From: Clostridia bacterium
GTDB lineage: Bacteria; Bacillota; Clostridia; Christensenellales; UBA1242
NCBI GenBank assembly: GCA_017409005.1
Contig: JAFQTP010000001.1
Location: 88,218-152,217 of the forward strand
Direction of reading: 5' to 3'
DNA: 64,000 nt
Each line of letters starts with the position of its first letter. Position 1 is the stretch's first letter. The translations under genes and the position numbers were made by a program. The notes under the pieces were generated by a model. That model saw only the letters and a program-made list of their open reading frames with translations. It was not told where the DNA came from and ran no database searches. Shown here one piece after another: positions 1 through 19,711 of this stretch.

Positions 1-2689
1 GAATTGCAATTTCTCTTCTAGGATTATCAATAACCACTAATCTATGAGCCCCGGTTTCTGGCACTTGAACTTCAATAATGTCATACGAGTTTTTTGCATT
101 TTCTTTTAATTCAAGAATATTATCCTCAATATCTCTTTGTAGTCCTTGTAAATATTCAACAAAAGTTTTTGCCTTCTTTGCGTGTTTAACAACAATTCCT
201 TTGCTATTTAAAATTTTTTCAAGTTCACTTTTATTAACTAGTTTTTCAATGTCTCCCTTCTTAATTAACTTCTCGTAATCAACTTTGGAAATTCCCGGGA
301 ACATATCTTTACTAAAATATTTACTATAGTCAGTAGATTGTACAACCTCTATAAGTTCCTTTATTTGTGCAAGCAGTGATTCAAGATTCGAAACTTTTTC
401 AATAGTTTCTTGTAATCTTATTTTACTATCAGATAATTGATTATTTCTAACAGATTGTTGGTAAATAACTTTCGCATTATGTAATTCTTGTTCTGCGTTT
501 TGTAAATTTTCCCTATTAACAACTTGGGCATGTAATTTTGCCAATGTCCTAAATTGTGCAACAATAAACTGTCCTTTTGGTCCAAGAGCTTCAGACACTT
601 TATCTATTGAAATTTTCCCAGTGATAAAATTATTAAAAGTTTCATCATTGGCAATAATTTCTTTTAATGCATCCTCAAGTCCTTTTTTATCTAAACCAGC
701 AAATTTTTCTCTTAACTCTTTTAATTTCGCTGTTTCAGCTTCAGCAGCACTTTTTGCAGTGTCCCCAAATGCTTTTACTTCAAAAATTTCGCCAACCTTA
801 AGCATCAACTTTTCATAGACCGACTCAAACTTTGCTTCGAAAGCAGCAAAGTCAAAACTTCCATCTTTTTTTGTTTTACTAAAATCTTCTAAAGATTTAA
901 TAGCGGATAGAAGATAGGCATCAAAGTTTTTAAGCTTTCTAGAAGAAGGATCAAGGGTTGCTCTTTTTTCTTTTGTTAACTCTAAAGCTTTAATTCTTAA
1001 ATTTTCAATAAACATTGCTTTAGTGTTTTGTATAATACTAACATCCGTTGTAGAAATTTCATTTTGAATACTAACAATTCCTCTAGAAATGTCATAGATA
1101 TCTTTAGTTGAAACTTCAGTTTTTTCTCTTTCGCCAAATTGTTTAAATTTAACTTCGTTTGCAACCATAATTAAAGCCGCTGCTTTCTCTCGTTGCTCAA
1201 CCATTTGTAGTAGAGCACTATTAAACTCTAAAATTTCTTTTTCCTTAAGTTTATATGCAGCATAAGCTGTTGAGCCTGATAAAACTCTAGCCTCAGCCGC
1301 CGCTCTTTTTTGCATATTAGCAAGAACTTTAAAGTTATTAATTAACATATCAAGAACTTCATTAAAGTAATCATCATTTCCACGATTAATAAACTTGTTT
1401 ATAATTGAAGCCTTCTCAGCCTCGCGGATATCATTTCGAGTATCTAAATATTCTGTAATAATTGTTCTTCTACGTTTATTTAAATAGTCTCTGAAGTATG
1501 CTAATTTTGCAGCAATTTCAGCAGCTTCATATTCTCTAATAAATTCACCTTCAGCTTCCTTTCCTGCAGTAGTCATATAATTTTGTGTTTCTGTATTTAC
1601 ATAGTTATCACGTGCAGTCTGGTTTGCAATTTGCCTTCTAGAATATTCTTCTTTAAATGCAATTAAATTCATTGTTGCATTTAAAACTTCAGGTTCAACA
1701 CTAATAGCGTCAACAACAGCTTTATTTTTTGCCTGATCAATAAGTAGTGGCAACAGAGGTCCCCTCATGACAGCAAATTTATCATTTGTAGGTTCAACAC
1801 GAGTAATAACCCCACCAACCTTATCAATTCCAATAACAGAAACAATAAGATCAGCCAAAGCTCCCTGCCCTTTACTTCTTAAATCTTCTAAAATTCGTTC
1901 ATATTTAGACTCTTTAGTTAATGAAATCTCTTGTGTTCCATCTTTTTTTGTTTTAATTGTTATACACTCTAATGCACCACTTGCCATCACTGCATGCATT
2001 GCAAGAACAGGCACCGGCACGTTAACATACTCAGAATATTGTTGCAAGCCGGTTCCAAAAGCCTCAGCAATACCTTTCGAATCTAATTCATCAGTCAAGA
2101 ATTTAGTCAATGCCTCATTGCCTTTTGCCGCTTCTACTAATTTAGCATGGAAAGAATCGATATTTGTTCTGTCAACAGTTTTAATTTTACTTTCTACACT
2201 TAAAATTAAATCTTCTAATTTAATTTGTCCTTTTTTAATTTGGTCAGCATTCAAATATTTTCTAGCCCACTCAAATTCAGGTTTCAAATCATATTGTTTA
2301 ACACCATCAACAGTTGCAACCTCAACAAAGATTTCAGCCTCCATCTTATCTGTCATTTCTTCATCGTATATAGCGCCAAAATATCCTCGAACAACTTCTT
2401 CATATCTTACCAATGCTCTACTATGAGACGATAGTCTAAAAATATCTTCAAGTTTCACACCCTCAATTGAACCAGTTGCCAATGTTTCAATTTGAGCATC
2501 AGCTTCAGGAGTTTGAAGTGTTTCAGCACCACTAACAACAGCCTCAGCCATTGCTTCAGCGCTATGAATTTCTGGGTCACATAGTGGTTTTTTCAAAATC
2601 TCAGCCAAAACAGTTTTATTAATAGTTAACTGTGCTTTAGCTGTTCTCACAACCCCATGTGCATCTTTTATAACAACTTTTTTTGCCAT
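1..2689 (-). CDS. Large helical protein of unknown function, 3' end cut by window
   Basis: The minus-strand reading frame is open from an ATG at 2689 to the window edge, giving at least 896 codons; the C-terminus is missing. The start follows a good Shine-Dalgarno site (AAGGTGG, about eight bases upstream) and a promoter at 2721-2749. The protein starts MAKKVVIKDAHG, has no signal peptide or membrane helix in the visible part, and is rich in Ala, Glu, Lys and Gln with long stretches that look like coiled coil. I do not recognise a family. It lies head-to-tail downstream of the virB4-like gene, separated by a terminator, so it is a separate unit beside the secretion locus. It could be a secreted substrate, a structural component or unrelated; the sequence does not decide this. 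Confidence 0.85.
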   Translation of the reverse strand, partial: MAKKVVIKDAHGVVRTAKAQLTINKTVLAEILKKPLCDPEIHSAEAMAEAVVSGAETLQTPEADAQIETLATGSIEGVKLEDIFRLSSHSRALVRYEEVVRGYFGAIYDEEMTDKMEAEIFVEVATVDGVKQYDLKPEFEWARKYLNADQIKKGQIKLEDLILSVESKIKTVDRTNIDSFHAKLVEAAKGNEALTKFLTDELDSKGIAEAFGTGLQQYSEYVNVPVPVLAMHAVMASGALECITIKTKKDGTQEISLTKESKYERILEDLRSKGQGALADLIVSVIGIDKVGGVITRVEPTNDKFAVMRGPLLPLLIDQAKNKAVVDAISVEPEVLNATMNLIAFKEEYSRRQIANQTARDNYVNTETQNYMTTAGKEAEGEFIREYEAAEIAAKLAYFRDYLNKRRRTIITEYLDTRNDIREAEKASIINKFINRGNDDYFNEVLDMLINNFKVLANMQKRAAAEARVLSGSTAYAAYKLKEKEILEFNSALLQMVEQREKAAALIMVANEVKFKQFGEREKTEVSTKDIYDISRGIVSIQNEISTTDVSIIQNTKAMFIENLRIKALELTKEKRATLDPSSRKLKNFDAYLLSAIKSLEDFSKTKKDGSFDFAAFEAKFESVYEKLMLKVGEIFEVKAFGDTAKSAAEAETAKLKELREKFAGLDKKGLEDALKEIIANDETFNNFITGKISIDKVSEALGPKGQFIVAQFRTLAKLHAQVVNRENLQNAEQELHNAKVIYQQSVRNNQLSDSKIRLQETIEKVSNLESLLAQIKELIEVVQSTDYSKYFSKDMFPGISKVDYEKLIKKGDIEKLVNKSELEKILNSKGIVVKHAKKAKTFVEYLQGLQRDIEDNILELKENAKNSYDIIEVQVPETGAHRLVVIDNPRREIAI

Positions 2690-2720
2690 TTATAAATCCA
2701 CCTTTTTCATTATTGCTTTA

Positions 2721-2749
2721 ATTTTATCACATAAATGTTATATTTTCAA
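2721..2749 (-). promoter_or_regulatory. Promoter of the partial helical-protein gene
   Basis: Read on the minus strand, TTGAAA is followed after 17 bases by TAAAAT, about 30 bases before the ATG at 2689. Spacing and -10 match the vegetative sigma factor consensus. Confidence 0.55.
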
Positions 2750-2878
2750 TATAAAATTCCTAAAAATACGTTAAAATAGCGTAAAAATAGTCAAATTTTG
2801 CACATTTTAAGCATAAATATTCACTATTATATTTTTTGCAATTTATAATTACAAATTCGGTTTAATACATTAAAAAAC

Positions 2879-2910
2879 AAAAACGTATGCAATAATTTGC
2901 ACACGTTTTT
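2879..2910 (-). terminator. Rho-independent terminator after virB4-like gene
   Basis: A 14-bp stem with one G-T wobble and a four-base loop ends in a U-run on the minus strand, six bases past the virB4-like stop codon. Confidence 0.8.
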
Positions 2911-2915
2911 AATTA

Positions 2916-5573
2916 TTATGCTCTGTTTTGTTTTTGTTCAAAGATTGTTCTAACAACTGGAAGCGCTTCAATTTGAACACTTGTACGACGCATTGCACTA
3001 GTAATCATGAATGCTTGTCCACGTTTTGCAGTAACAATCTGATCACGTTCCTCATCGTTAATACCACCAGCATTTTTATACAGTTCAAGTAGGTCGGTCA
3101 TATCGTTAGGTGATAATGCAAAAATTAAAGAATATTGGCAGGCATTGATAATAGCTGTTGATTGTTGAGCAATTTCAGGCGAACCAACGAAGTCTTTAAT
3201 ATTTTGGGTAATAATGATTTGCATTCCGTAATATTTACGAATACGTTTAGCCATTTGCAGTAAGAAGTTTAACGCAACTGGGAATTTTTTATTAATGAAT
3301 ACGTGCGCTTCGTCTACACATACAATAACACGGCGGTGTTCTTCTTCTTTAAGTGTTGGATCGTTAAAGTATTTTAAGTTAAAATCACGGTTTTTAATAA
3401 TTTCGTTATTTAAATATTTAAATACAAGTAACATTTGCGCATTTGCAATTAAATCGTTATCGTTTGCAAGAAGAGTACGGAAGTTAAAACAGATAAAGTT
3501 TTCGTTTGTGGAAATTGATGTTGGACCATTCCAAAGGTTCGAGTTTCGGCCACCTGTAGCAAATTTTTCGATATATGTTTTAACTGTTTGTAGGTTACGA
3601 ACAACATATGGTTCTTTTTCGGTTTGAAGCCTTGAATTAACAAGTTTCATAAGGTCATCGAAGATTGGAAAATCTTCAGGTTTTAACTTAATAATTGCAG
3701 TTTCTGGACCAATGTTTTTCTCGCGATATAGGTCAACGATAATTGAGTTTAATGTTTCAAAAGCGTCGGTGTTAATACCTTGCAAAATAACTTTAAAGAA
3801 GTTTTCTAGGAATTGCAAGTGAGCATTAAACGTATCGTCTACTGCACCTTCCTCGGCTTCAAGCGATGGATAAATGTGGAATGGGTTAAAAATACCTAAT
3901 TGCGACGACGCAACGTCAATCATTTTTCCGTTTAAGTTATTACACAAAATTTCATACTCGTTTTCTGGGTCGAGAATAAATACACGAGTGTTGTCGGCAG
4001 CAAAGTTTGTAAGCAATGTTTTTGTTGCGAACGATTTACCACCACCAGATTTACCAATAATCATCATGTTTGAGTTAACACGCTCGTTGTTACGAGTAAA
4101 GAAGTTTACAAACACAGGATATTGGTTATAACCCAAATAGAAACCATTAACGTCTTTAAGTTCAGATGAAATAAATGGGAAACATGCACATAAACTTGAT
4201 GTGTGAATGCCACGTTCATATTCAGAAAGTGCATCCAATCTTGAAATGTTAGCACTAACAAATGCGTTAATTTGACGACCAAAGTTTTCAGCATATTTAA
4301 AGCCATATTGTTTTAAAACCGCTCTAACCTCTTTTTTAACGCCTTCTTCAGCGGTAATATGAATGTTTGTGTTATAAATGTTTTCGTTGTTTGTTTTTAG
4401 GCTTGCAAGCAGTTCACGTAAAGAATCGTAGTGGGTTTGAGCTTCAATTTTTTCTGACTCTCTAAATACCTTACCCATTCTAATTTCCATTTCCATTAAG
4501 GATTTATCTAGGGTTTTTTCCGCCTTAAACTTATCAACTGGTGTAATATTTACCACCACACGACAATTATCCAATTGAAAAATTGGGAATAACCACGCAT
4601 TTGCAACTTCTAACGGATAGTCGGTAATTGTGAAAGTACGATATGCACGATCATCAATGTTTGTTGTGTTAATTTTAAATTTAACTTTGTTTGGTGTTGC
4701 CCATTTAATTTTTTCTTCTGCGTTCATAATGGCAAGTTCACGTTGATCGAAGTTATCGTCAAATGTACTTTTTAAGAAAACTAAAAGTTCGTCACCAGTA
4801 ACAATATCGGTTGCAATTGGTGTTTGCGAACTTAAAAGTGTTGCAACAATACCATTAACAGTACTTTCAAGCAGTTCTCTATCGGTATCATAAATTACCA
4901 TATAGTAGAAATTCATTAAAACCTTATTATCGTTATTAAGCAAGTTAATTGCACGTAATCGTTCTTCAAAAACAGGGCTTCGTGCTTCTAACTCTGCACT
5001 ACCATAAAGCCCACGATCCGCCATATCCATAAGGGTGTTATATTTAGCATCTTCAAAGTTAACCAATTCGTCTAAAACTAGGGGCTTTTTAACCTTTACT
5101 ATGCTTAATTTTTGGTTTTTACCCAAACGAGAAAATGCCTGTGCAAATGTATTCAGAGTCATTTCTTGTTTTTCGTTATCCATCATACCAAATTCCATTG
5201 GATGTACTTGAATAACCATTCCATAATATTCACCAAAACTAATAAATTTATCGGTTGAAACACCCATAAATGGAATAATACGTCTAATGTCGTCATTTTT
5301 GTTTTTAGGGTCTTTAAAATATTCTTTTTTATACGCTAAAAACTTAAACATTAACACAATGGAATAGTATAGTTTAATACCATCAGAAACCGGCACAAAA
5401 AGCATGCACCAAAACGATGCAAAACTAAGGCCAATATACCATTTATATGGCAAGTTACTAATAAAAATTAAGATAGTAGAAATTACACCAAGAATCATTA
5501 AAATAACGTCTAATATTGAAACGCCACGATAGACCTCGGTTTTAACCTTACTCTTTCTAGGAATAAACTTCAT
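2916..5573 (-). CDS. VirB4-like type IV secretion ATPase with fused N-terminal membrane domain
   Basis: This 885-residue protein is a VirB4/TraE-class ATPase, the energising component of type IV secretion at the inner face of the membrane. Two predicted membrane helices lie near residues 18-70. The ATPase domain has Walker A GKSGGGKSF near residue 508 and Walker B VIVCVDEAH near residue 752. The N-terminal two-helix segment resembles the small PrgI/VirB3-type protein that is usually a separate gene, so this looks like a fusion; that part is inferred from layout. The start ATG has SD GAGGTG four bases upstream. The gene is transcribed in the same direction as the VirB6-like and VirB2-like genes but has its own promoter and terminator. 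Confidence 0.9.
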   Translation of the reverse strand: MKFIPRKSKVKTEVYRGVSILDVILMILGVISTILIFISNLPYKWYIGLSFASFWCMLFVPVSDGIKLYYSIVLMFKFLAYKKEYFKDPKNKNDDIRRIIPFMGVSTDKFISFGEYYGMVIQVHPMEFGMMDNEKQEMTLNTFAQAFSRLGKNQKLSIVKVKKPLVLDELVNFEDAKYNTLMDMADRGLYGSAELEARSPVFEERLRAINLLNNDNKVLMNFYYMVIYDTDRELLESTVNGIVATLLSSQTPIATDIVTGDELLVFLKSTFDDNFDQRELAIMNAEEKIKWATPNKVKFKINTTNIDDRAYRTFTITDYPLEVANAWLFPIFQLDNCRVVVNITPVDKFKAEKTLDKSLMEMEIRMGKVFRESEKIEAQTHYDSLRELLASLKTNNENIYNTNIHITAEEGVKKEVRAVLKQYGFKYAENFGRQINAFVSANISRLDALSEYERGIHTSSLCACFPFISSELKDVNGFYLGYNQYPVFVNFFTRNNERVNSNMMIIGKSGGGKSFATKTLLTNFAADNTRVFILDPENEYEILCNNLNGKMIDVASSQLGIFNPFHIYPSLEAEEGAVDDTFNAHLQFLENFFKVILQGINTDAFETLNSIIVDLYREKNIGPETAIIKLKPEDFPIFDDLMKLVNSRLQTEKEPYVVRNLQTVKTYIEKFATGGRNSNLWNGPTSISTNENFICFNFRTLLANDNDLIANAQMLLVFKYLNNEIIKNRDFNLKYFNDPTLKEEEHRRVIVCVDEAHVFINKKFPVALNFLLQMAKRIRKYYGMQIIITQNIKDFVGSPEIAQQSTAIINACQYSLIFALSPNDMTDLLELYKNAGGINDEERDQIVTAKRGQAFMITSAMRRTSVQIEALPVVRTIFEQKQNRA

Positions 5574-5636
5574 GTTTCACCTCTAAATTTTAGTTTAATT
5601 TACATAATAAATAAAATTTATGCTAAATTTTAACTC

Positions 5637-5652
5637 ATATACTATAGTATAT
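5637..5652. promoter_or_regulatory. Perfect 16-bp palindrome over the virB4-like promoter
   Basis: ATATACTATAGTATAT is a perfect inverted repeat. It covers the -10 and the expected start point of the virB4-like promoter, a good place for a repressor. Its AT-only arms make chance occurrence less unlikely than usual. Confidence 0.4.
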
Positions 5653-5673: not shown

Positions 5674-5764
5674 AATAAAATAAAAAGGTTTTAATTAATT
5701 ATATCTAATTATTTTTTATGGTTGTTTTATCTATTTATTTTAACCCACTATACCTCTAAACAAC

Positions 5765-5795
5765 AAAAAAGAACTCGAATTTCGAGTTCTTTTTT
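5765..5795 (-). terminator. Terminator after VirB6-like gene
   Basis: A 13-bp stem (AAAAAAGAACTCG with its complement) and a five-base loop ends in a U-run immediately after the VirB6-like stop. Confidence 0.85.
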
Positions 5796-5796
5796 G

Positions 5797-8343
5797 TTAT
5801 TTTATTTCTTCCTTCATCTTTTCAAGCTCAGCTTTTGTAGACTCTTCAAGACGTTTAGCCATTTTCTCAACAAGCAGTTTAAATCCTTCACTTGTTTTAT
5901 CCATTGTTGGGTTCATGGCAGCAACAAGTTTTTCAGCCATATCGTTAACATTTTGTTCAGTTTTAACAGTTCCAGAAACATTAACAGCTATATCTCCTGA
6001 AACCACAGCATTTGCTTCGGTTCTAATACCTTCTATAGCACCTGCTAAATCCACTTTACTATCTCCATATGTTTGTGAACTTAGGTATTCTTGAATTGTA
6101 TTTCCAGATTTTCCATTTGCAGCCAATCCTTTCGCGGAGGTTAATCTATCTAGCAAGTCTTTTTGAACATCAGACTTAGATTCAATACCCTCAAGAGCCC
6201 TAATCATTGCTTCTAATTGTGATAAACTTTGCGTGCTTGTTAATCCACTAAAACCACTATCAAACCCTTTACCACTTAACGCATCTATAATTGCTTGAGA
6301 AGCATCATTAAGTTTTTTAGCTGCATTATCTAAAGCTTGGTTTCCAGCAGCATTTGTTCGCTCTTCTTTCCTTTGACCAGCACCACCATCGCCCATCAGT
6401 TCTCTAACATCAAACAATCCGCCCGTTACTGCACCACTCTTACCACCATTCCAAGCATCTCTAGCATACATTCCGGCCTCGATTTTTGCTTTGTTAATTT
6501 TTGAACCATGATTTCCGGTAATTAAACCATCAACAGCACCAACCGTACCTGCCGCAACAGTACCTGCAACTCTTTGAATAGCATGTCTTCCCTTATTTAC
6601 TGGGTCAACAAACACTTTTTTGTTCCATTGTCCCCATTTACTATTTCCAATAGCTTCTCCGGTTTCTTTTGCTTTTGCGCCTAGATAATCACCCATTGTT
6701 AACTCGCCACTTTCTAGACGTTTTTTCTTTGCTGTTTCTTTTTCATCTTTAGCAGCCATAGCTTTATCGTAGTCAGTTTCTTCACTAAATTTACCTTTAA
6801 TTGCACCACCGGTAATAGATCCAATACCTTTATTTGCAGCAGCACCTAATGTTCCTTTTGCATTTTGGAATAATTTGTTACCCATATTACCAAATGCAGC
6901 ACCCGCATTTGCATGTCCCATTTTTGTAAGCATTGCACCCACACCTTTACCGGCCATACCTGCAACGCCACCAATACCAATAGCGCCAATTTTTCCAACA
7001 GTTGAACCAACTTTTTGAGCCATACCTGCACCAGATGCTGCGGCATCATCGGCCCCTACCATTTCGGAAATCATTTTAGTTATATCTTTAATCATGAATA
7101 AGCCAGTTAATGTGAATAATATTGAAACAAAGCTATTAATTCCATTAAAATCGAAGCCTGCATCAAATGAACCACCAACTCCACCTAAAGGAGCAAATAA
7201 TTTAATACTATCAACAACTGGTAAAATAATAAATAACAAGTTTAATGCAACAATTGTTCCATATGCTGCAAGCACTTGACCAACAAATTTACGTCTCCAA
7301 GAAGTAAATGCATCTGATTTTAAAGGCATTAATGCAACTACTGGAGGTGAAATAACAAACAAGATAACCGCATTAAATAAACGCATTATCATACCAAACG
7401 ATACATTTAACATTGTCATGGCAGCAAGTAATGCAGCACCAATATATGTAATAAAGTTCATTTCCTTAATGTTGTAATACATATCTACAATACCATTGCT
7501 TTGGTAAAAATACTGACCAGGCATAACAATACTACCCTGTGCCTTGGCTAATCCATTTAAAAGGTTTACTGAACTTTCAGCTAAACCTGTTATGGTTCCA
7601 TTTAAAACGCCAGCAAGCAATGTTCCACCTTCCAAGGTGTTATCTTTAAACGCCATATCAATTAAATCAGCAACGGCTTCACGGTTTGTATCATTTACCT
7701 CACCAGTGAACCCAACCGAAGTTAAATAATTTGATCCAGCCGCCCAATTACCACCACTTCGAACTCTGTTGCAGTTTGATGCAGCAGAAACAAATATTGA
7801 TGAACCCAAAGTTGCCTGACCAGTAGAAAGATTTGTAGCCCTATCTATAGTTTTAAGTAAAGCGTTGCTAATTCCTACTCCACCAATACAGCAAACAGGA
7901 ACCAAGAAAAATAGCAATAAGCTTTTTAAAGCTGTGCCAAATATAGCCCCTTTACTATTTTTAGCCCCTTCACTTGAAAATTCTGATTGAATAATTTTAA
8001 TAATAGCAGCAACAATAACCATAACAACAGAAACTAATGTTAAAGTAACCAAAATTTGTATAACATCGTCATTAGTCATCAATGCTAGTAAAGGGTCAAC
8101 CCCCTCATACTTTGTTGAATTGCTTCCTTGAACAACCCAGTATGTATCCAATCCACTTAATTTTCTGAAAATTAATTGAATCATGTCAACAATTTCTAAA
8201 AGTGCTGTACCAACACTAAATAGTAAGTCGGCAAAAAGTAGGAAAATTAAATCAAAAACCCAGCCAATTAACCAAATTAAAAAGGTTGTTAGCCATTCAA
8301 TTAAGAAATCTAAAATTCCTAACGACATTGAAGCAAAATGCAT
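5797..8343 (-). CDS. VirB6/TrbL-like polytopic membrane protein of the type IV secretion system
   Basis: This 848-residue protein has at least six hydrophobic segments in its first 400 residues (for example near residues 10-45, 85-110, 125-150, 275-340 and 365-385). A Gly/Ala-rich stretch follows, then a charged, probably helical C-terminal tail. This architecture fits VirB6/TrbL/PrgH-type channel proteins. I chose the ATG at 8343 because GGGAGGAAAGG lies just upstream. A longer frame could start at a TTG at 8415, but the promoter at 8432-8460 would place that codon about at the transcript start. No lytic transglycosylase or peptidase domain is visible. Family assignment comes from topology and context, not from a diagnostic motif. 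Confidence 0.75.
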   Translation of the reverse strand: MHFASMSLGILDFLIEWLTTFLIWLIGWVFDLIFLLFADLLFSVGTALLEIVDMIQLIFRKLSGLDTYWVVQGSNSTKYEGVDPLLALMTNDDVIQILVTLTLVSVVMVIVAAIIKIIQSEFSSEGAKNSKGAIFGTALKSLLLFFLVPVCCIGGVGISNALLKTIDRATNLSTGQATLGSSIFVSAASNCNRVRSGGNWAAGSNYLTSVGFTGEVNDTNREAVADLIDMAFKDNTLEGGTLLAGVLNGTITGLAESSVNLLNGLAKAQGSIVMPGQYFYQSNGIVDMYYNIKEMNFITYIGAALLAAMTMLNVSFGMIMRLFNAVILFVISPPVVALMPLKSDAFTSWRRKFVGQVLAAYGTIVALNLLFIILPVVDSIKLFAPLGGVGGSFDAGFDFNGINSFVSILFTLTGLFMIKDITKMISEMVGADDAAASGAGMAQKVGSTVGKIGAIGIGGVAGMAGKGVGAMLTKMGHANAGAAFGNMGNKLFQNAKGTLGAAANKGIGSITGGAIKGKFSEETDYDKAMAAKDEKETAKKKRLESGELTMGDYLGAKAKETGEAIGNSKWGQWNKKVFVDPVNKGRHAIQRVAGTVAAGTVGAVDGLITGNHGSKINKAKIEAGMYARDAWNGGKSGAVTGGLFDVRELMGDGGAGQRKEERTNAAGNQALDNAAKKLNDASQAIIDALSGKGFDSGFSGLTSTQSLSQLEAMIRALEGIESKSDVQKDLLDRLTSAKGLAANGKSGNTIQEYLSSQTYGDSKVDLAGAIEGIRTEANAVVSGDIAVNVSGTVKTEQNVNDMAEKLVAAMNPTMDKTSEGFKLLVEKMAKRLEESTKAELEKMKEEIK

Positions 8344-8803
8344 AAATCCTTTCCTCCCAAATAGGTTTTGCTTTTGTTTTAAAGCATATTTGCTTGGCAT
8401 ATACGCTCGCACCAAGCAATTTTATAGTTCAATTTTACAACATAAATTGCCAAAAATCAATAAAATGATATAAATTGTTCAACAATTTTATATTTTATAT
8501 ATATAATTTGCAAATGCAGCAAATTTATTATATCAACTGCATTAAAGTAGAAAACTCAACTAGTTGCTTTATTTTCAAATTTTAAATTAACTAAGTTAAA
8601 CAAAATCCAACCCAACAAACAAACTCTAAAACAACAAAATTAAAACAACAATAACAACAACTTAGTACTCCAAAAATTACTAAAACATTTTAATCTTCAT
8701 AAATAGCAAAATATGCCTTAACAAAGGAATATATTTAAAACACATTTTAAGTTAAATATATTAAAAAAAGAACAAAAAAAGAGGCACCAATGTGCCTCTT
8801 TTT
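8344..8803. other. 460-base intergenic stretch between the VirB6-like and VirB2-like genes
   Basis: No gene is visible here. It contains the VirB6-like promoter, a second possible TG-extended TATAAT near 8530, and a 13-base inverted repeat (TTAACT-A-AGTTAA) at 8587-8599. It also has a run of about 65 bases without G on the plus strand (about 8598-8662), and at its far end the VirB2-like terminator. The strand asymmetry is unlike the other intergenic regions of the window. Confidence 0.6.
8432..8460 (-). promoter_or_regulatory. Promoter of VirB6-like gene
   Basis: Minus-strand TTGATT, 17 bases, TAAAAT. Transcription would begin near 8425, upstream of the ATG at 8343. Confidence 0.6.
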
Positions 8804-8805
8804 TT
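8774..8805 (-). terminator. Terminator after VirB2-like gene
   Basis: GAGGCAC pairs with GTGCCTC around a CAAT loop, flanked by A7 and T7. The hairpin overlaps the last two bases of the VirB2-like stop codon. Confidence 0.9.
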
Positions 8806-9214
8806 ATAGTTTCCATTTAATCGATGTTGTTCCAGCAGCAGCATCTTCAGGACCAAAACTCATAATCCATTGAGCAATTGCTTCAGCATTTGCTGTAAAT
8901 AGTTTTAATAAGATTAATAGTAAGATTGTTACAACCAAACCAATGATTGCATTAATCATACGTTTTTTAGCTTCTTCACGTTTATCTGAACTTTCAGCCT
9001 TACTAAAGTTTACACCAAGAATAATTGCATAAATAGAACCAGCAGTACCAATTAAAATTAAAATTGGAACAAGCATTGCATCTAAAATTTCAACAACTGG
9101 TTCAAAGACACTTCCATAAAATCCTTTAACATCGGTAATCTCTTCCCCTAGCATGCTAACGCCACTAATTAGGCCCATAACTCTTTGTGCAACTTGCAAT
9201 AAAAACATTTGCAT
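8804..9214 (-). CDS. VirB2-like small two-helix membrane protein (pilin-like)
   Basis: This 136-residue protein has two long hydrophobic helices (near residues 45-67 and 88-107). They are joined by a charged loop with the sequence NFSKAESSDKREEAKKR, the layout of VirB2/TrbC-type T4SS pilins and their Gram-positive counterparts. The ATG at 9214 has SD GGAGGG six bases upstream. It has its own promoter and strong terminator, fitting a component needed in higher amounts than the channel. It lies between the VirB6-like and VirD4-like genes. The N-terminus shows no obvious cleavable signal. The family call is by topology, loop and context. Confidence 0.75.
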   Translation of the reverse strand: MQMFLLQVAQRVMGLISGVSMLGEEITDVKGFYGSVFEPVVEILDAMLVPILILIGTAGSIYAIILGVNFSKAESSDKREEAKKRMINAIIGLVVTILLLILLKLFTANAEAIAQWIMSFGPEDAAAGTTSIKWKL

Positions 9215-9375: not shown

Positions 9376-9458
9376 ATTATTGTATGTATGAAAATTTGTT
9401 TTGCATTTAACTTAAAACATGCAATCAAACTTTCAAATAAAAACACAAGGTGAAATTT

Positions 9459-11513: not shown

Positions 11514-11520
11514 TTTAACA

Positions 11521-11557
11521 AAAAAACAGCAATTAACTTTGCTGTTTTTTCTTTTTT
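11521..11557 (+). terminator. Terminator after virD4-like gene
   Basis: AAAAAACAGCAA pairs with TTGCTGTTTTTT, followed by more T residues, eight bases after the stop. Confidence 0.85.
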
Positions 11558-11747: not shown

Positions 11748-11782
11748 TTATGAAAAATGGAAACACACCATAGGAGTAACTT

Positions 11783-14700
11783 ATGAAAAAATTGAGTTGG
11801 ACTAAAGTTTTAAACATATCAATCATTATTGCCGCACTTTTAGTGTTGGGCTGTTTTTTTGGAACCGCGTTTTATAAGCGACCAGTTAATGAAACACAAG
11901 CCGAAGCACTTGTTGAAGGCATTCCGTTTAAAGTGGGGGTTGTGAACCGTAACGCTAGTGCGTTTGTTAACGAAAACTTTACATACACAACCACTGAAGA
12001 GTTCTATAACGGCACACTAGAAACAATTACTGCTAACCAACATGTAATGCTTTATAACTATGGAGCAGAAAAGAACTTTATAAGCAACGCCAGTTCACTT
12101 CAGCAAGTTAAAAACCTTTATATAAGTTTTGGTGCATTTAACGAAGAACTTTACCTTACATACTTAGAAGTTTATGTTCGTTTAAACGGAAACCTACTTA
12201 CCAGCGACCATGGCATCAATCAAAAAATTGAATACTATGATGCATCAGATAAACTTCCGGGAACCAACTCCCCTGCTTACTACTGGTTTGATTACTTCGA
12301 TGCAAAACCACTAACTTCAGACAAAACTCAATCTGCCGAGGGGTTATACGAGTTTCAATTTGACTATATGTATGTTAAAGATGGTAAGATTTCTCAAAAA
12401 AATACTTATACATTTAAATTCTATTTGCTAGACCAATCTAAATACAATAACTACCCTCAATTTGAAAACGCAACCGAAGGCAATTTAGATGCAACAAATG
12501 TTAAACAATACTATTACAACTACACAAATGCAAATTTAACAAAACTAAACATTGACGCTGCAAGATTTAATGTTTCTTATACCAGAGAAAAAAATAAAGA
12601 CACTGAATCAGTTACTTCAAGTTTTGCAGTTGACCCTAACACAAAATTAGGAACATTAACTCTAACAAAAACAACAAACTATGGTGGAAATAGTGTTGAA
12701 ACTATTTCAAACATTGTTGGAAATGCAAACGGCGAATACTTTACATCAATTTATTTCGACGACCTTGGTTCTTATTCGTTCACAATAAAATATTTATTAA
12801 AACTTTCTGATGGTTTAACCAATAAATATGAAGTAATAGAAAATATTTTGGCCTACGACGCCAACGAACCTAAATACGAACAAAACTTAATTGCAAAAGG
12901 CCAATATAAGTTACATATTTTTGGTGTTAAGCTTTACTTTAGTAAAAATGGTAGCACCGAGCTAAAACAAAAAGAAAATAATCAAGTTTTAGTTCAAGCC
13001 GACGTAACAAATCAACTTTGTGGCATAAATAATTCTTATGACTACATTACCCATGGTTTTAAAAATGCCGATACATTTACAATTCCTGGCGTAGATGGCG
13101 CAGACCCAACAGAAGTTACAAATCCTTTAAAAACATTTACTAACTACCCTGTTACAAACTTAGCTCCATTATACTTTGATTATTACAGCACATTTACATA
13201 TTCAGGCTCTCAACCTTTGTCAACTTATAAAATTTATAAAGACTCAACTTTTAGCGAAGTTAAACAAAGTGGGTATATTACTAAAGATACAAACCTAGAC
13301 GAAACCGGATATTACGAAGTTATTATTAATTATTCGTTTGAACGTTATTCTCACCCAACACTTACTCAAGTTCAAGGTGCAGAATATGTACATAAACAAG
13401 CATTCATTTTCCAAATTGACAACTCTACACCTGAAATAACAATGTATAAGTCAACCGAACAAACACCTGACAACATTATTAAAAACAATTCGTTTATAAA
13501 CTCGGGCGTAACTGCTAGTTGGCAAGACGGAAACTACTTCCAAGCCCCAATTACAGCAGAATATTTCCAATATAACTTTGATGGCGGATTAATTAGTTCA
13601 AGTGCTTATACCAAGGGTAGCGTAATTGGTAATGGTGGAAACGGAAAATATTTAATTAGACTTTATTACTCAACAACTAGAGATGTTTATGTTGAAACAA
13701 GCTTTACCGTTGACACTACACCAATTAGCGATATTTTAATTCAACCAATTTATCAACGTAAAGACGGTAATGGCAATGCTACTGGCTACGGATTAGTAAC
13801 CGACACAAACGAAGTTAACTTTAATGGATCAACCATTATAAACCAACCATTTACACTAACCTACTCTCAAAAAGATAGTGGCGCAGCAATTACAACAACA
13901 TACTATAAAATTCCATTTGCTTACAACGAAAATGTTGGAAACAGTATTTCGTTTTTATCTGATATTTATGTTGAAACCGATTATATTATAGACCCAACAA
14001 ACATGAGTAGTGGTGTTGATTATTCGTTAGATTATTCATCTATTGCATCAGGAATTATTTCAACCGAAAACGCATTTGTTGAAGACAAAAGTTATATTTA
14101 CCTATTTGAAATTTCAGATGAAGCAGGAAACACTGCAACAAAATATATCATTTACGACCTAACAAAACCTTATGTTATTATTGACTCCGACGCAGAAACA
14201 GAGGGAGTTCAAGAAATTGATAATCCATATAACATTGTTAACAAAAAAGCAACATTAACTTGGGGAAATTATAAAAGCATCAAAGTTGATGCTGTTATAG
14301 AAAATGAATCTATTCAAAACAAAAAATTAGAACACATTATTTTAAATGAACCAAGTTTATTTAAAAGAATTGACCCTAGTAAATATTATCTATGTGTTCC
14401 AATTACAAGATTTACCGCTAATCAAGATGCAAACAACATAACATTAGAAGGTTCTACTTTCCAAAGCGGTGTAACTTTATATCCTACAACAAATGGGCTA
14501 ACAAGCCAAGTTGATTTATTCTTTGCTGGTGACGGAAAAGTTTACACCTACACCATTACCGATGCCTCACACTTAAGAAGTGCAACAAACATTGCAAAAA
14601 GCAACATTAGCGGAAGCTATGTTGAAATGAATTTAGATAACGCGCAAGGAATGGCTTATGGCGTGTTTGGGCAAATAACCGATAACAATGTTGGTAGTTA

Positions 14701-17700
14701 TTTGAAAAACAAAACAACAAGTGCTAAACAATTAAGGTTTACATATTTCCCTGGAGAAGAAGGCAGCGATTATTATGTTAAAAGCGTAACATATTCGTTC
14801 TACGATTTTGCTCCAGAAAGTTACGAAACTGTTAATACAATTTTAACAGGCGAAACAAACTATTTAACCGAATATAACACAAACATTGAAAATGGCATAC
14901 CTTACCCAACCTACCCATTTAGCAAAACTGCAACAATTTTAAATCGCGCCGTAACACTATCTGACGACAAAGTGTCTGAAGCTGGTCAAACTGATAGAGT
15001 TGTTTCAAATATTTTAAATCCTGTTAGCGGTGAAGGCTCACAAACATACTCAAAAGAAGGTATGTATGTAATTAGAAGAGAATATGAGGCAAGCGGAAAC
15101 GAAGAAGCTTATGAATATGATAGTGTTGTAAGATATTATGTTTTCTATGTTGACAGAAACGGAATTATTGAAATTGATACAAATATTGAAGATACTCACA
15201 TCTACCAATCAAGCAGAAGCGAAATGCTTTACGAAACCGGTTCAGGTATTATATTTAACTTTTCAAAAGTTAACCAAATGGGACAATACGACACATACTA
15301 CACCGCCCTACAAATTCAACAATATTTAGCTTATGCAGGTTCTACAATTTTTGATAGTAATAAACTTCCTGTTAATTTCTACTTACCTTTAGATAAATAT
15401 AATTCTAGAGTAACAATTAGCAAAGCCACCGATGGTACAACTGATTTCACATATTTATCTACTATTTCTTCTGACAACTCGTTTAACTTCCAATTAAGAT
15501 ACAACATTTTACATACATTAAACGGAAAAGACACCGTTGTATTTAACAACACAGGATTAGAAGAGGTTATTAACTATAATTATGTAACACTTTCAAATAA
15601 CGATGGATATAGAACTTTAAAATTTGTTAAAGAAGGACAATACACCGTTAAATTATATGACCGCTCAGATAATCGTGGCGATTTGTTAAGCGGAGAAATT
15701 AATGCATCAATTGAAAATCAATATAACAACTCTTACGAATTCAGTTTTGTATTATCACACGAAAGCCCAACCGGCGAATACTTAACAAAATATAACGATG
15801 CAAACCGCACCGACCAATTGTTAACAATTACATCTACTACAAGCGAAAATTTAAAATTTAACAGCTTAAACAACGATTCATTACGCTTTAGATTTAGAAA
15901 GAATGACGATAAATATCGTGCAGAAGTTAATCCAGATGCAATTATTGTTAATAAAACCGTTGGAAATTCTACCTCTACAATATTCTCTGGCGGACAAGAT
16001 TCTAACATTTTAAAATTTGTTCCAGATGGAATTGATAGTTCTAGTGGATTACCAACCACAACCGGATATTATGTTTTAACAATTTTTGATGAACAAGATT
16101 ATCAGAATGATGGAAAAACCTATTTAGGTGGAACAGGTCAGACAAGAGATTATTTACAATCAAAATCGCAAAACATTACCTACACCATAACACTACAATA
16201 TATTGGTGATGAAGGCGATTACTTAATTACTTTAGAAGATGGCAGTCAAGTTAACTACTTTACACGTACATTCACAATTACTTTAGACCGAATTAAACCA
16301 CAATATAACTATCAAAGTTTAATTACACTTGATAATCAAAAATTTGCAGCAAGTTCAAGTTTAGATAGTTCTAGAATGGACAACTACTTCTTTGCTGTTA
16401 ATAACAACTTTAAATTTATTCAAAATCAAACATTAGGCGGTCCATTAGATTCAACTGCACTATTTGTTAGAAAATTAGTGGGCAAAAACGCTGATTGCGA
16501 CTTCCCTGAATACTACAAAACATTTACTCCAGACGACGAAAACTATTATGCCGAGGGAAACACTAATCACCTTCGCTTCTCAGAAAGTAACGCTTCGTTT
16601 GAACAAGTAAGCTATGGTGGACTTACAGGCGAACCAATTGATGCCAACATCGCATTCCGCCAAGGCAGAGGATATTACGAAGTTGTTGAACGCGACGAAG
16701 CTGGAAACTATCAAGTTTATGCAATTTATTATAATCCAGACCCTATTAACGACCGCAACATTATTACATATTGTTATAATCCTGCCCTTGTTGAAGGAAC
16801 AGACAGCATTCAAGCTGAAATTCCATTTGAAAGCAACGATACCATTCAAAATAGCATTGAACTTTTAGGTGATAGTTTAGAATTTATTGCAATTGATTAT
16901 TTAGGAAACGCTAAAAACGACTACTTCTATAAATGTATTATTGAAAGCAGTGCACTAGGCACGCCTAAAACAATTACAAACAACCCTAACGACAGAAATG
17001 ATTCTAACAACTGGACATCATTTTTAAATTTAATTAACGAAACATTAGAATTTACTAAAGCAAACACCCCATCAGGATTTAGAGTAACAATAACATTTGT
17101 TAACCGTTTAAGCGAAAACTATGTTATTACTTATCGAGTTCCTGGTGAACCATTAAAATTGTTGCCACCTACATCGGAATCTGGCACTCAATTTACGGTT
17201 ACAATTCCTGCCGACACCGATAGCACATACATTAAGGAATTCCACGCATGGAAATTTACCGATGGTGCTTGGATTGAACAATCGCAAGACTCACTTGGAA
17301 ATACAATTGTAAAATCATATTCAACCGGTGCAAGCCTACAAGGCAGATCATATACTTTTGGTTTAGGTGAATTTAAATTTAAACTAATTGATATATTTGG
17401 CAGAGAAAGTGTTGAATATAAAGGTCTTGGCGTTAACGATGTTAATTTAGTTTTATTTAATGGTAATTCAGTTGTATATGACTCAGACGTTCCTAACTAC
17501 GACGGAACAACCGGTGCCAATGTTACACACACTGCAAACAATGTAACCGTTCAATATCAAACTAATTTATATTCATTTGTTGTAAAAGAACGCACTGAAG
17601 ATGGTTCATATGTTAAAGTTGAAATGAACAATTATCACAATGTAGGAATTACTGAACAAAGCGTTGTTGATGGAGTTAGAACATTAATTTTCCAAAATAA

Positions 17701-19711
17701 CGCAAAAGACACAATAAAACAATTCCAAGTTACTTTAACTGTTGATAAATTAGCAGGAACCGAAGGATACACTCCAACACAATATAACTTTGCAATTAAC
17801 AAAACTTTACCAGAAATTATTTTACGCAACCTTTCAGGTGGAAGTTTAATAACTTCTAAAAATTCATTAGAACCAACAATTCATACCGAAAACTTTACCG
17901 TTAACTGGGAAAACACTGACGCTTATTCTGGAAATGTTAACTTAATAAGAACATATATTGATGCAAGCGGAAAACAGGTTACAGAAACAATTAACAACAT
18001 TCCTAACGGATATGAAGTTGGATTATCTGGAACCTACACAGCAAGCATCTCAAGCAGCCTAGGATATTCCGATTCAGCATACAACATTTACTTTAAACTT
18101 GTTTCAGGCGAAATTGTTGTTTACGACGTTGTTGCAATTAATAATGGTGTTGAAACAATTTTACGTCCATCTCCTAAAACAAGCACAATAACTATTGACG
18201 ATGTTGAAAAAGTTTTATATAGATACTATGCTCAAGCAAGTTTCAACAACCCACAAGGCTCAGAAAAATATATTGAACTTAGAGCAAACAAAAACAAAGG
18301 TATTGAATATACTTTAATTTCAGATTCAACACCAGATGAAGAACCAGAGGCACAAACCGAGGGCGAAGAAGAAGGTTCTGATGGTGGCGAAAGTGCAGGA
18401 ACTAACACTTTAATTAAGAAAACCTATAAAATTTACGGTTCCAGCAACTATGGTTACGAACGCTATATCGAAATCATATTTGTTAACGAGTTAACCAATG
18501 AGGGTTTAGGATTTACTAATATTAAAGCAACCTACCCTACCGACAACCAAGGAAATATTTCAGAAATAACCCTTAACGGCGGAATTGTTACAACAAATGT
18601 TAGCCAACTAGATTTAACATGGAAAGCTTACAACCTAGGTGCATATAACTACACCGAATTAAGAGGAAATTTAATTTACCTAGACTACTATTTTAATGAT
18701 AATTTTGTTAGAACAATTTACAGTGATTCTGCTGAATTTAACAAATTAACAATTAAAACCGCAGGTATTCATAAGTTTAAACTATATGATTTGGCTGGAA
18801 ACATTCAATATTTTGGCGCTAACAGCGAATTAGTTATTAACTTAGTAAATAATGTGTTATTTACAATAAACAACGCAGAACCTATTAACAATCAAATTTT
18901 TAATAGCGATGTTGTTTTAGAAATTACAAACCGTTACTTATATTTCTCAGACCCAACAATTTCAGCCACCTTAAACGGAGCTCCTATAACACCAGAACGT
19001 GTTGGAACCAGCTTCTATGCTTATAAATTTAACCAACACGGATACTATGAAGTAATTATTTCAACATACATTACACAAAATGAATCGGTAACAACAAAAT
19101 ACTGCTTCACAATTATTAACCAAAGAATTGCTCTGCCATGCTTTAGTGTTCCACAAAACGCAAACTTTAAAGTAGTGTCAATTTTAAAACAAAATTCAGA
19201 TATAACACACACTTTAACAAACTTAAAAGAATTGTGGATTAGTCCTGCAACAGTAGGCGTTGGCAACTACACTATTACACTAAGTCAATTTAACGACGCA
19301 TTAAATCAAGATGTTGAGTTTAGTTTCCAAGTGTGGGTTAATAATGAAATTCCTTACATTTATAGTAGCCAAGAATTTGGAACTTCTACAACAAAAGATA
19401 TAACCATTACTTACAACCCAAAAATTATTTACGACCAAGTTGGTGAAAGTTATATTGCAATTACAGGAAAACCTGTTATTCACATTAATTCTGAAAGTCC
19501 GAATGCAATTTCAACTGTTTTACTAACCGAAAATTTAGAATATTGGATTCAGATATATAGTGCCGACAATAAACTAATAAATTCATATAAAGTTACAAAA
19601 GACGAACCACTTAACACAACCGCAATTATTATTATTGTTGTTGTTTCGGTAGTTGTTGTTGCATTAATTGTTGTATTTATTGTAATACGTCGCCACTTGA
19701 AATTCAGATAA
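11783..19711 (+). CDS. Giant membrane-anchored extracellular protein (2642 residues)
   Basis: The product begins with a membrane helix near residues 10-32 and ends with a second one (AIIIIVVVSVVVVALIVV) followed by a short basic tail RRHLKFR. About 2560 residues therefore lie outside the cell with no LPXTG signal. The extracellular part is rich in Asn, Thr, Tyr and Ser. It shows recurring beta-sandwich motifs such as EISDEAGNTATKYIIYDLTKP and VERDEAGNYQVYAIYY, resembling strings of bacterial Ig-like domains. Residues near 2190-2215 form an acidic Glu/Gly-rich linker. The start has SD AGGAG six bases upstream. It follows the virD4-like gene on the same strand but has its own promoter. An adhesin or contact protein for the secretion system is my inference. 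Confidence 0.85.
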   Translation: MKKLSWTKVLNISIIIAALLVLGCFFGTAFYKRPVNETQAEALVEGIPFKVGVVNRNASAFVNENFTYTTTEEFYNGTLETITANQHVMLYNYGAEKNFISNASSLQQVKNLYISFGAFNEELYLTYLEVYVRLNGNLLTSDHGINQKIEYYDASDKLPGTNSPAYYWFDYFDAKPLTSDKTQSAEGLYEFQFDYMYVKDGKISQKNTYTFKFYLLDQSKYNNYPQFENATEGNLDATNVKQYYYNYTNANLTKLNIDAARFNVSYTREKNKDTESVTSSFAVDPNTKLGTLTLTKTTNYGGNSVETISNIVGNANGEYFTSIYFDDLGSYSFTIKYLLKLSDGLTNKYEVIENILAYDANEPKYEQNLIAKGQYKLHIFGVKLYFSKNGSTELKQKENNQVLVQADVTNQLCGINNSYDYITHGFKNADTFTIPGVDGADPTEVTNPLKTFTNYPVTNLAPLYFDYYSTFTYSGSQPLSTYKIYKDSTFSEVKQSGYITKDTNLDETGYYEVIINYSFERYSHPTLTQVQGAEYVHKQAFIFQIDNSTPEITMYKSTEQTPDNIIKNNSFINSGVTASWQDGNYFQAPITAEYFQYNFDGGLISSSAYTKGSVIGNGGNGKYLIRLYYSTTRDVYVETSFTVDTTPISDILIQPIYQRKDGNGNATGYGLVTDTNEVNFNGSTIINQPFTLTYSQKDSGAAITTTYYKIPFAYNENVGNSISFLSDIYVETDYIIDPTNMSSGVDYSLDYSSIASGIISTENAFVEDKSYIYLFEISDEAGNTATKYIIYDLTKPYVIIDSDAETEGVQEIDNPYNIVNKKATLTWGNYKSIKVDAVIENESIQNKKLEHIILNEPSLFKRIDPSKYYLCVPITRFTANQDANNITLEGSTFQSGVTLYPTTNGLTSQVDLFFAGDGKVYTYTITDASHLRSATNIAKSNISGSYVEMNLDNAQGMAYGVFGQITDNNVGSYLKNKTTSAKQLRFTYFPGEEGSDYYVKSVTYSFYDFAPESYETVNTILTGETNYLTEYNTNIENGIPYPTYPFSKTATILNRAVTLSDDKVSEAGQTDRVVSNILNPVSGEGSQTYSKEGMYVIRREYEASGNEEAYEYDSVVRYYVFYVDRNGIIEIDTNIEDTHIYQSSRSEMLYETGSGIIFNFSKVNQMGQYDTYYTALQIQQYLAYAGSTIFDSNKLPVNFYLPLDKYNSRVTISKATDGTTDFTYLSTISSDNSFNFQLRYNILHTLNGKDTVVFNNTGLEEVINYNYVTLSNNDGYRTLKFVKEGQYTVKLYDRSDNRGDLLSGEINASIENQYNNSYEFSFVLSHESPTGEYLTKYNDANRTDQLLTITSTTSENLKFNSLNNDSLRFRFRKNDDKYRAEVNPDAIIVNKTVGNSTSTIFSGGQDSNILKFVPDGIDSSSGLPTTTGYYVLTIFDEQDYQNDGKTYLGGTGQTRDYLQSKSQNITYTITLQYIGDEGDYLITLEDGSQVNYFTRTFTITLDRIKPQYNYQSLITLDNQKFAASSSLDSSRMDNYFFAVNNNFKFIQNQTLGGPLDSTALFVRKLVGKNADCDFPEYYKTFTPDDENYYAEGNTNHLRFSESNASFEQVSYGGLTGEPIDANIAFRQGRGYYEVVERDEAGNYQVYAIYYNPDPINDRNIITYCYNPALVEGTDSIQAEIPFESNDTIQNSIELLGDSLEFIAIDYLGNAKNDYFYKCIIESSALGTPKTITNNPNDRNDSNNWTSFLNLINETLEFTKANTPSGFRVTITFVNRLSENYVITYRVPGEPLKLLPPTSESGTQFTVTIPADTDSTYIKEFHAWKFTDGAWIEQSQDSLGNTIVKSYSTGASLQGRSYTFGLGEFKFKLIDIFGRESVEYKGLGVNDVNLVLFNGNSVVYDSDVPNYDGTTGANVTHTANNVTVQYQTNLYSFVVKERTEDGSYVKVEMNNYHNVGITEQSVVDGVRTLIFQNNAKDTIKQFQVTLTVDKLAGTEGYTPTQYNFAINKTLPEIILRNLSGGSLITSKNSLEPTIHTENFTVNWENTDAYSGNVNLIRTYIDASGKQVTETINNIPNGYEVGLSGTYTASISSSLGYSDSAYNIYFKLVSGEIVVYDVVAINNGVETILRPSPKTSTITIDDVEKVLYRYYAQASFNNPQGSEKYIELRANKNKGIEYTLISDSTPDEEPEAQTEGEEEGSDGGESAGTNTLIKKTYKIYGSSNYGYERYIEIIFVNELTNEGLGFTNIKATYPTDNQGNISEITLNGGIVTTNVSQLDLTWKAYNLGAYNYTELRGNLIYLDYYFNDNFVRTIYSDSAEFNKLTIKTAGIHKFKLYDLAGNIQYFGANSELVINLVNNVLFTINNAEPINNQIFNSDVVLEITNRYLYFSDPTISATLNGAPITPERVGTSFYAYKFNQHGYYEVIISTYITQNESVTTKYCFTIINQRIALPCFSVPQNANFKVVSILKQNSDITHTLTNLKELWISPATVGVGNYTITLSQFNDALNQDVEFSFQVWVNNEIPYIYSSQEFGTSTTKDITITYNPKIIYDQVGESYIAITGKPVIHINSESPNAISTVLLTENLEYWIQIYSADNKLINSYKVTKDEPLNTTAIIIIVVVSVVVVALIVVFIVIRRHLKFR

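Follow-up and report, generated by a model that had tools for sequence, protein, structure and literature searches.

The 64,000-nucleotide stretch of DNA analysed here (the window; G000:C1:88218-152217) comes from G000, a genome of 1.21 Mb in 8 contigs that belongs to a family of Clostridia coded f1, and its first 19,711 nucleotides carry the genes of a type IV secretion system (T4SS) together with that of a giant, predicted extracellular protein (the giant). The genes form two arms diverging from ~9.3 kb, with the pilin, VirB6, VirB4 and helical-protein genes on the minus strand and the VirD4 and giant genes on the plus strand:

1..2689, minus strand: N-terminal part (~896 residues) of a cytosolic, fast-evolving helical protein (open reading frame, ORF; substitution rates); the gene continues left of the window
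2878..2911, minus strand: terminator-like hairpin 3' of the VirB4 gene (hairpin scan)
2916..5573, minus strand: VirB4 ATPase, Mbov_0397-like, 885 residues (TraG P-loop and NCBIfam; Walker A GKSGGGKS at residue 507)
5762..5798, no strand assigned: 17-bp hairpin between the VirB6 and VirB4 genes with T/A tracts on either side (hairpin scan)
5797..8415, minus strand: VirB6-like polytopic membrane protein, 872 residues, with a long C-terminal extension (NF045848, seven hydrophobic windows)
8772..8807, minus strand: terminator-like hairpin 3' of the pilin gene (hairpin scan)
8804..9214, minus strand: VirB2-like pilin of the Mbov_0395 family, 136 residues (PF18895 and NCBIfam)
9450..11513, plus strand: VirD4 coupling ATPase of the CD1115 family, 687 residues (Pfam and NCBIfam; Walker A GTTGTGKT at residue 158)
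11521..11550, plus strand: terminator-like hairpin 3' of the VirD4 gene (hairpin scan)
11783..19711, plus strand: the giant, 2642 residues, predicted extracellular (ORF; hydrophobic anchors at the N- and C-terminus)
19721..19751, no strand assigned: bidirectional terminator-like hairpin 3' of the giant gene (hairpin scan)

The original prediction, made from the letters of the window, that VirB4, VirB6, VirB2-like and VirD4 genes lie together here with a 2642-residue, two-anchor protein and a helical protein is confirmed by Pfam, NCBIfam and hydrophobic windows. The Pfam E values were 5.6e-9 for T4SS_pilin (PF18895), 1.3e-49 for T4SS-DNA_transf (VirD4, PF02534) and 1.2e-19 for the TraG P-loop (VirB4). 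Matches to the CD1115-family VirD4, the MMCAP2_0566 VirB6-type protein and the Mbov_0395 pilin stood above the NCBIfam cut-offs, VirB6 reaching 102 bits against NF045848 (cut-off 90), and VirB4 scored 581.7 bits against Mbov_0397, a family of mycoplasma integrative and conjugative elements (ICEs), below the threshold of 590 for that family. Homologues of VirB4, VirD4 and VirB6, as expected of a Gram-positive (FATA-type) T4SS, are all present by these profiles, and the short N-terminal hydrophobic part of VirB4 may be a fused VirB3-like piece. The giant has exactly two hydrophobic windows, starting at residues 3 and 2607, and no Pfam or NCBIfam domain above cut-off. Each gene had also been predicted to have its own promoter and terminator. 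A terminator-like hairpin stands at the 3' end of all five T4SS and giant genes, where the longest stems of the scan are found, the total over 20 kb (15 sites, compared with 10.6, sd 3.5, in shuffles) being not far above chance. Promoter-like sites are no commoner than chance (79 observed, 86.5 expected by shuffling).

The complete helical protein has 1575 residues (L002:7962-12689) and 35 GPTT repeats in an array at residues 1032-1171, which was not seen in the homologous proteins of three other genus members (the G002 copy is cut at a contig end). Its N-terminal part gave no informative Pfam or NCBIfam match. As relatives were found only within the genus, and the other genes downstream of VirB4 differ across the family, a role as a family-wide effector is not supported. 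We consider this protein a candidate substrate or scaffold.

To the left of the window the helical gene runs another 2 kb to its end, and the rest of the 20-kb flank holds, in order, genes for a WG-repeat protein, an aldolase, a membrane protein, a leucine-rich-repeat surface protein, GAPDH, a papain-like surface protease, mnmA and metK, the names that lack a Pfam match being readings of the sequence. The protease (L001:7839-10652, ~10 kb left of the window) is a papain-family protein of 937 residues with a lectin-like domain. No relaxase or integrase was seen in this leftward extension of housekeeping and surface genes or in a scan of 11 proteins from the locus and its flank. Neither MobL relaxase relatives nor relatives of three recombinase queries were found among ORFs of at least 60 residues across positions 1-40000 of the window and the 20 kb preceding it, 60 kb in all. 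There is no tRNA gene in the window, and neither integrase nor attachment site was recognised at the locus, which agrees with the earlier claim that no integrase is present. On the right, YpeB- and SleB-like genes at 21006-23027 adjoin the locus (SleB, YpeB and SpoIIR are names from sequence reading, with no family match behind them). The gene neighbourhood is the same within the genus (G001 and G003 on both sides; G002 on one, the other lying beyond its stretch), and both flanks are in part common to G019, G026, G032 and the window locus. As the YpeB/SleB neighbourhood is kept only in part of the family, we take this vicinity as an accident, and a functional link to sporulation was dropped.

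The T4SS is, with very little doubt, a fixed, vertically inherited machine of family f1. In a core sample of 59 genomes, 35 of f1 and 24 others of the order (15 named relatives are 'Clostridia' or 'Clostridiales' metagenome-assembled genomes, several from rumen or gut), VirB4 was found in 35/35 f1 genomes, with 41-100% identity where a single alignment covers most of the protein and with four matches in two pieces, and VirD4 was found in all 35 as well; outside f1, 8 of the 24 genomes match VirB4 at all and 3 strongly. MobL was found in none of 34 neighbourhoods of the fixed locus (stretches of 4 to 60 kb), and a recombinase relative is present in 2 of the 33 other than our own (G008, G007a). 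Presence in the sampled family is universal and not patchy, and the outcomes named beforehand as refuting the original prediction did not appear. A wider sample of the order gave a VirB4 match in 73 of 257 genomes, 18 of them f1, which adds 12 further f1 genomes, and in other families VirB4 is patchy; since its 164 no-match genomes are unlisted, that sample taken alone leaves room for an f1 genome without VirB4. In G005, G012 and G018 the VirB4 match splits in two near residue 575-580 inside one open frame, as it does in five species of genus g57, which points to a short divergent insertion at this place.

The giant was found in 20/59 genomes, all f1, by a single-sequence search, and in 33 of the 35 f1 genomes by a profile of its C-terminus, which also gave weak matches in G036, G039 and G047. 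The two f1 genomes without a C-terminal match are G010, where the copy is cut at a contig end and the N-terminal part was found, and G017, with no match. An open frame of 2303-3277 residues is present in 27 of the 33; the short frames are those of G015 (1763 residues), G022 (925), G023 (560), G024 (855), G027 (602) and G034 (706), G015 and G022 having a second piece of the giant on another contig.

Calling the locus 'minimal', as was done at first, needs care, since relatives have some of the parts in duplicate or dispersed around the chromosome. VirB6 or the pilin is duplicated in some of them, and VirB4 lies far from VirD4 in many f1 genomes, among them 6 of the 20 in the VirD4 tree (G009, G012, G014, G021, G028, G033). 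VirB4 adjoins ribosomal-protein genes in G021, and G012 has a matching run of gene sizes; VirD4, the giant and a pilin-like gene remain clustered in G014, G021, G028 and G033. In G034 (L106) a 3607-residue ORF with membrane segments lies directly downstream of VirB4 and beside a VirB6-like gene, and is perhaps an extreme, extended VirB6-type protein.

Trees were built by a quick method with no bootstrap, from 56 rows for VirB4 and 30 for VirD4. A branch with an SH-aLRT of 90 separates the 34 fixed chromosomal VirB4 copies from 22 ICE-type copies, the latter including the second copies of four f1 genomes (G007, G014, G028, G184); likewise, a branch with an SH-aLRT of 91 separates 20 fixed VirD4 copies from the ICE-type ones. 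The distances of VirB4 and VirD4 agree (r 0.88 over 20 genomes; 0/9999 permutations as high) although the genes are far apart in the six genomes named above, and those of VirB4 and mnmA correlate with r 0.52 over 22 genomes (0/9999 permutations as high). Within the genus the ratio of non-synonymous to synonymous rates (dN/dS) was 0.07-0.09 for VirB4, 0.10-0.14 for VirD4, 0.17-0.23 for the giant, 0.38-0.44 for VirB6 and 0.53-0.78 for the N-terminal part of the helical protein, all rough values with dS mostly 0.7-2.5 and beyond measure in three comparisons. VirB4 and VirD4 are under purifying selection, of common descent, and have descended together.

'ICE-type' is a label from layout for the copies outside the fixed set, 14 of the 22 having no MobL in the stretch examined. 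In the other eight (G014b, G028b, G036, G039, G223, G259, G270, G281) MobL lies beside VirD4; the L076 relaxase passes Pfam MobL (5.1e-23), and the G036 and G039 proteins had no Pfam match in the protein scan, G036 being found above cut-off in a genome search with PF18555 and G039 remaining the weaker assignment, as the MobL model used included both sequences. In four of the eight (G014b, G028b, G036, G039) a surface-type protein of 1486-1956 residues directly precedes VirD4 and matches the giant only at its C-terminal end, weakly (G036, G039). These MobL-type ICEs of the same order share with the f1 locus homologous VirB4, VirB6 and VirD4 and, mostly, a recognised pilin; unlike it, they have MobL beside VirD4 and their T4SS genes on one strand, are patchy, and stand separate in both trees. 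Near the ICE-type VirB4 of G042 (L064, L105) we noted a 1344-residue ORF that reads as Cas9-like and a 132-residue frame of repeated peptide, as a CRISPR array would yield.

As all parts of the machine descend from this MobL-type ICE layout, and as ICE-type loci do exist within f1 (G014 and G028 with MobL, G007 and G184 with none seen), the window locus could be an ordinary ICE, or a remnant of one, caught without its relaxase. We reject this explanation: the machine is present in every sampled f1 genome and forms a separate single group in both trees, its frames are open under strong purifying selection, no integrase, relaxase or tRNA is linked to it in the window, and its genes are scattered in relatives and still co-evolve.

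The Helicobacter ComB system takes up DNA and feeds it to ComEC, and the f1 machine could be a device of this kind: a ComEC-type Competence domain is present in 35/35 f1 genomes (broken by stops in G008, partial in G020). ComEC is, however, common elsewhere in the order as well (20 of 24 non-f1 genomes), although no fixed T4SS was found there, which disfavours uptake, and VirD4, not obviously needed for it, is universal in the sample and strongly constrained; we regard an uptake device as very unlikely.

That no relaxase is visible, as the original prediction put it, is true of the locus and untrue of the genome. G000 has one MobL relaxase, on another contig (L114:9270-10502), within a 13.6-kb element bounded by tRNA-Thr (L114:5580-5655) and a repeat at 19234-19278, the direct repeat being 45 nt long and 96% identical. 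An RHH-like gene lies upstream of MobL, and xis-like and integrase genes downstream; the integrase passes Pfam, and no VirB4 or VirD4 was found in the element. Integrase, relaxase and attachment repeats without pore genes are the marks of an integrative mobilizable element, and in the available portions of PMC5704250 and PMC5357655 such elements share with that of L114 the integrase, the relaxase, the tRNA target, the repeat and the lack of VirB4 and VirD4. They differ from it, as described there, in having a co-resident conjugative element as helper, whereas the presumed helper is here a permanent system of the cell. In G012, the stretch that separates the giant gene from VirD4 holds a pair of genes (L132:6142-8096), for a ~249-residue protein and an HTH-methylase-like protein (sequence reading), similar to the pair at L114:12506-14481 in the G000 element.

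No VirB4, VirD4 or T4SS was found in G000 other than that of the window, whose machine is therefore the obvious helper for this element; help from a different cell, or from a system that escaped detection, is possible as well. MobL was found in 9 of the 35 f1 genomes (12/59 in all), and the 13 element loci of these nine have no VirB4 or VirD4 adjoining MobL; as such elements lack both, we infer that they probably use the fixed machine, which suggests that it can still move DNA. Its main native job might be DNA exchange among kin, a cell-owned conjugation of chromosomal segments as in mycoplasma ICEs, started by borrowed or unrecognised relaxases. The elements without VirB4 or VirD4, the presence of VirD4 in 35/35 sampled genomes, the nearness of VirB4 and VirB6 to mycoplasma ICE families and the chromosomal transfer by mycoplasma ICEs described in the available part of PMC12857230 all agree with this. 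On the other hand, the fixed locus has no relaxase beside it and most f1 genomes lack MobL; PF03432, Mob_Pre and MobA_MobL gave no match in G000, and the latter two none in the 22 f1 genomes searched (Rep_trans and other relaxase families lay outside the search). The large contact protein and the fast-evolving VirB6 and helical proteins also fit interaction with other cells, and we consider kin exchange unlikely as the main job.

The relaxases and integrases of the elements mostly share a C-terminal tail, [DE]M. Among ORFs of at least 120 residues, 28/174 end so in the 13 element loci, compared with 3/649 around fixed T4SS loci, 11/301 in ICE-type loci and 0/40 in the window; the three from fixed neighbourhoods are a G019 gene downstream of VirB4 (GMEM; may be chance) and the VirB4s of G026 and G032. 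In seven VirD4 loci, 1 of 80 ORFs ends in [DE]M. The tail is carried by 12 of 15 MobLs (exceptions L114, ending EL, L120, SM, and L122, VF) and by 11 of 12 integrases longer than 380 residues (exception L122), whereas the genes just upstream, chosen as controls by position and length (an uncertain choice for L120 and L124), gave 0/15 for MobL, 0/11 for the integrase and 0/26 together. As the integrases form two groups ~27% identical, the tail stands, with MobL, on at least three distinct protein groups. Across L114:7286-10743 and L115-L126, the common end of the unrelated relaxases and tyrosine integrases often reads as basic residues followed by DFEM. The tail was found on none of the 8 MobLs adjoining their own VirD4 and on neither of the 2 serine recombinases of L116. 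A DNA word for DFEM-stop was counted 32 times in f1, spread over 16 of the 35 genomes, and twice in the 24 others, its reverse 3 times and twice, and of 30 loci with the word 19 gave a readable ORF, by mutual similarity 17 tyrosine-recombinase-like and 2 MobL. These counts are not independent, as G028 alone supplies 6 of the 32 words and 5 of the 15 relaxases; G102 was dropped from the MobL tail list because its VirB4 had been picked up falsely. Viral contigs gave no MobL relatives and two integrase relatives, both tail-less, and outside the order the four proteins examined among the matches listed (one MobP2 relaxase, three phage integrases) all lack the tail.

Chance as the origin of the tail was rejected, as internal [DE]M accounts for 0.46% of the positions of these proteins and the reversed word is found 3 times against 32 in f1. 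An overlap with a Shine-Dalgarno sequence was rejected as well: codons and stop codons vary, and the distance to the next gene is very different in most, a gene starting at the stop in 4 of the 28 tailed ORFs (those being the short XerC-like genes of L118, L119, L121 and L125). Nor is the tail a general habit of f1 tyrosine recombinases, several shorter ones in the same loci being tail-less.

Judged by which proteins carry it, the tail is a candidate export signal common to relaxase and integrase, a suggestion we make tentatively; for other conjugation systems it is established that the proteins they move bear C-terminal signals (PMC11288057, in the part available). It has close to an even chance of being instead a stability, degradation or assembly tag of mobile-element proteins, as it is very short, has no known receptor and occurs also on small proteins of those f1 ICEs that have a VirD4 themselves. 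Such a tag would have to be reconciled with its position on relaxase and integrase, the two that are of use to a recipient, and not on their 26 upstream neighbours, with its lack on the 8 MobLs beside their own VirD4 and the 2 serine recombinases, and with the rarity of the DFEM-stop word outside the family.

Based on these data we propose, with a probability of about 0.6, that the machine is a cell-owned T4SS, formerly an ICE, that serves as carrier for the elements. It would derive from a MobL-type ICE with the layout VirB4-VirB6-pilin-large surface protein-VirD4-MobL, would have lost its tie to relaxase and recombinase, and would now be a permanent trait in a single reduced-genome, mostly gut family of Clostridia. 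VirD4 would recruit substrates, VirB4 and VirB6 would form the inner-membrane motor and channel and the pilin a short extracellular conduit, and the doubly anchored protein of ~2600 residues would extend outward and hold the partner cell. Small elements of some f1 genomes (Int-Xis-MobL-RHH, no mating-pore genes) would use the machine in trans, the [DE]M tail marking their relaxase and integrase for export to the recipient.

Several observations weigh against this proposal. No VirB8- or VirB1-like gene was recognised among the locus proteins by Pfam or NCBIfam, which distant forms would escape; no MobL match was found in 26 of the 35 f1 genomes; only short frames with the C-terminus of the giant are present in G023, G024, G027 and G034, the matches of G027 and G034 being weak; conservation of the helical protein next to VirB4 does not extend over the family; and the mnmA tree, weakly resolved and not recovering the family as one group, is weak as a species tree. 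As for the tail, the MobL of G000 itself ends IEL, and of 306 ORFs in 384 kb of G000 just two end in [DE]M, a RecR-like protein (sequence reading) and the element integrase, so that this census identifies no native substrate. Eight of the 26 MobL-less genomes still have DFEM-stop words, and the tail is thus not bound to MobL alone; two f1 ICEs with their own VirD4 have it on other proteins, and the fixed machine need not be its sole reader.

The closest parallel is the T4SS of Patescibacteria, which in the available parts of PMC12102498 and PMC12857230 is chromosomal, widespread in a reduced-genome lineage and mostly without a linked relaxase. The f1 machine too is chromosomal and lineage-wide, with an unlinked relaxase and a VirB2-like pilin (the pilin checked in the retrieved neighbourhoods, not in every genome). 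According to the same parts, both have VirB4 and VirB6 with VirB2-like pilins (PF18895 being among the profiles), at times tandem pilins, and scattered components; the Patescibacteria differ in phylum, in a VirD4 mostly far from virB4 and non-essential in one strain tested, and in that no PrgB-type adhesin was found, whereas a surface protein of ~2600 residues is near-universal in f1. Essentiality of other T4SS genes is shown there, again in those portions, whereas the f1 machine is known from sequence alone. Mycoplasma ICEs (ICEA/ICEB; Mbov_0395/0396/0397) supply the best or near-best families for VirB4, VirB6 and the pilin and, in the part of PMC12857230 available, also lack VirB1- and VirB8-like parts; a surface lipoprotein of theirs, CDS14, is essential (PMC6030558, in part). 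They are mobile with a DDE recombinase, whereas the f1 machine is fixed, occurs in an apparently spore-forming lineage and has a VirB4 just below the family cut-off. In most f1 elements, unlike the integrative mobilizable elements in the accessible portions of PMC5704250 and PMC5357655, relaxase and integrase bear [DE]M tails.

By this analogy the f1 machine is best read as a contact-dependent translocation machine resembling the relaxase-free T4SS of Patescibacteria. The fixed contact or protein-delivery machine of the original prediction is upheld in part, as fixed, chromosomal and relaxase-free; delivery of protein instead of transfer of DNA is a suggestion. Its main native role may be delivery to, or exchange with, partner cells, to which we give slightly less than an even chance; partner contact, the weakest step, is argued from the giant, the reduced genome, the Patescibacteria parallel and the predicted partner dependence of a similar family. 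UBA1242 of the Christensenellales comprises gut Clostridia whose genomes are reduced and carry sporulation genes, and which are predicted to depend on partners (PMC12306168); 'type iv secretion' is absent from the text of that paper. It describes UBA1242 as lacking fructose-bisphosphate aldolase, whereas here an aldolase gene (sequence reading) lies near the locus, with relatives in many f1 neighbourhoods, so that f1 may be a different family. We found no title or abstract describing the locus or the tail, the tail alone not having been searched for, and PMC10266427, available in part, was the single paper with both 'type iv secretion' and 'christensenellales'.

It is conceivable, though rather doubtful, that a permanent family-wide machine acts as a public carrier for mobile elements, with admission by a C-terminal signal on relaxase and integrase alike (often basic residues, then an acidic-hydrophobic end in [DE]M), the integrase injected as protein along with the DNA, and a giant adhesin for living off partner cells, so that spore-forming Clostridia would converge on the strategy of Patescibacteria. 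Should the [DE]M tail prove to be an export signal, it would provide a one-line sequence test for cargo and would predict that integrase is co-delivered with DNA. In one Patescibacteria strain, growth on the host requires the T4SS (PMC12102498 and PMC12857230, in the parts available). With a second lineage-wide, relaxase-free T4SS, in reduced-genome, apparently spore-forming Clostridia and with the giant as an added candidate contact protein, T4SS-mediated contact with partners would be a route by which dependence has arisen repeatedly.

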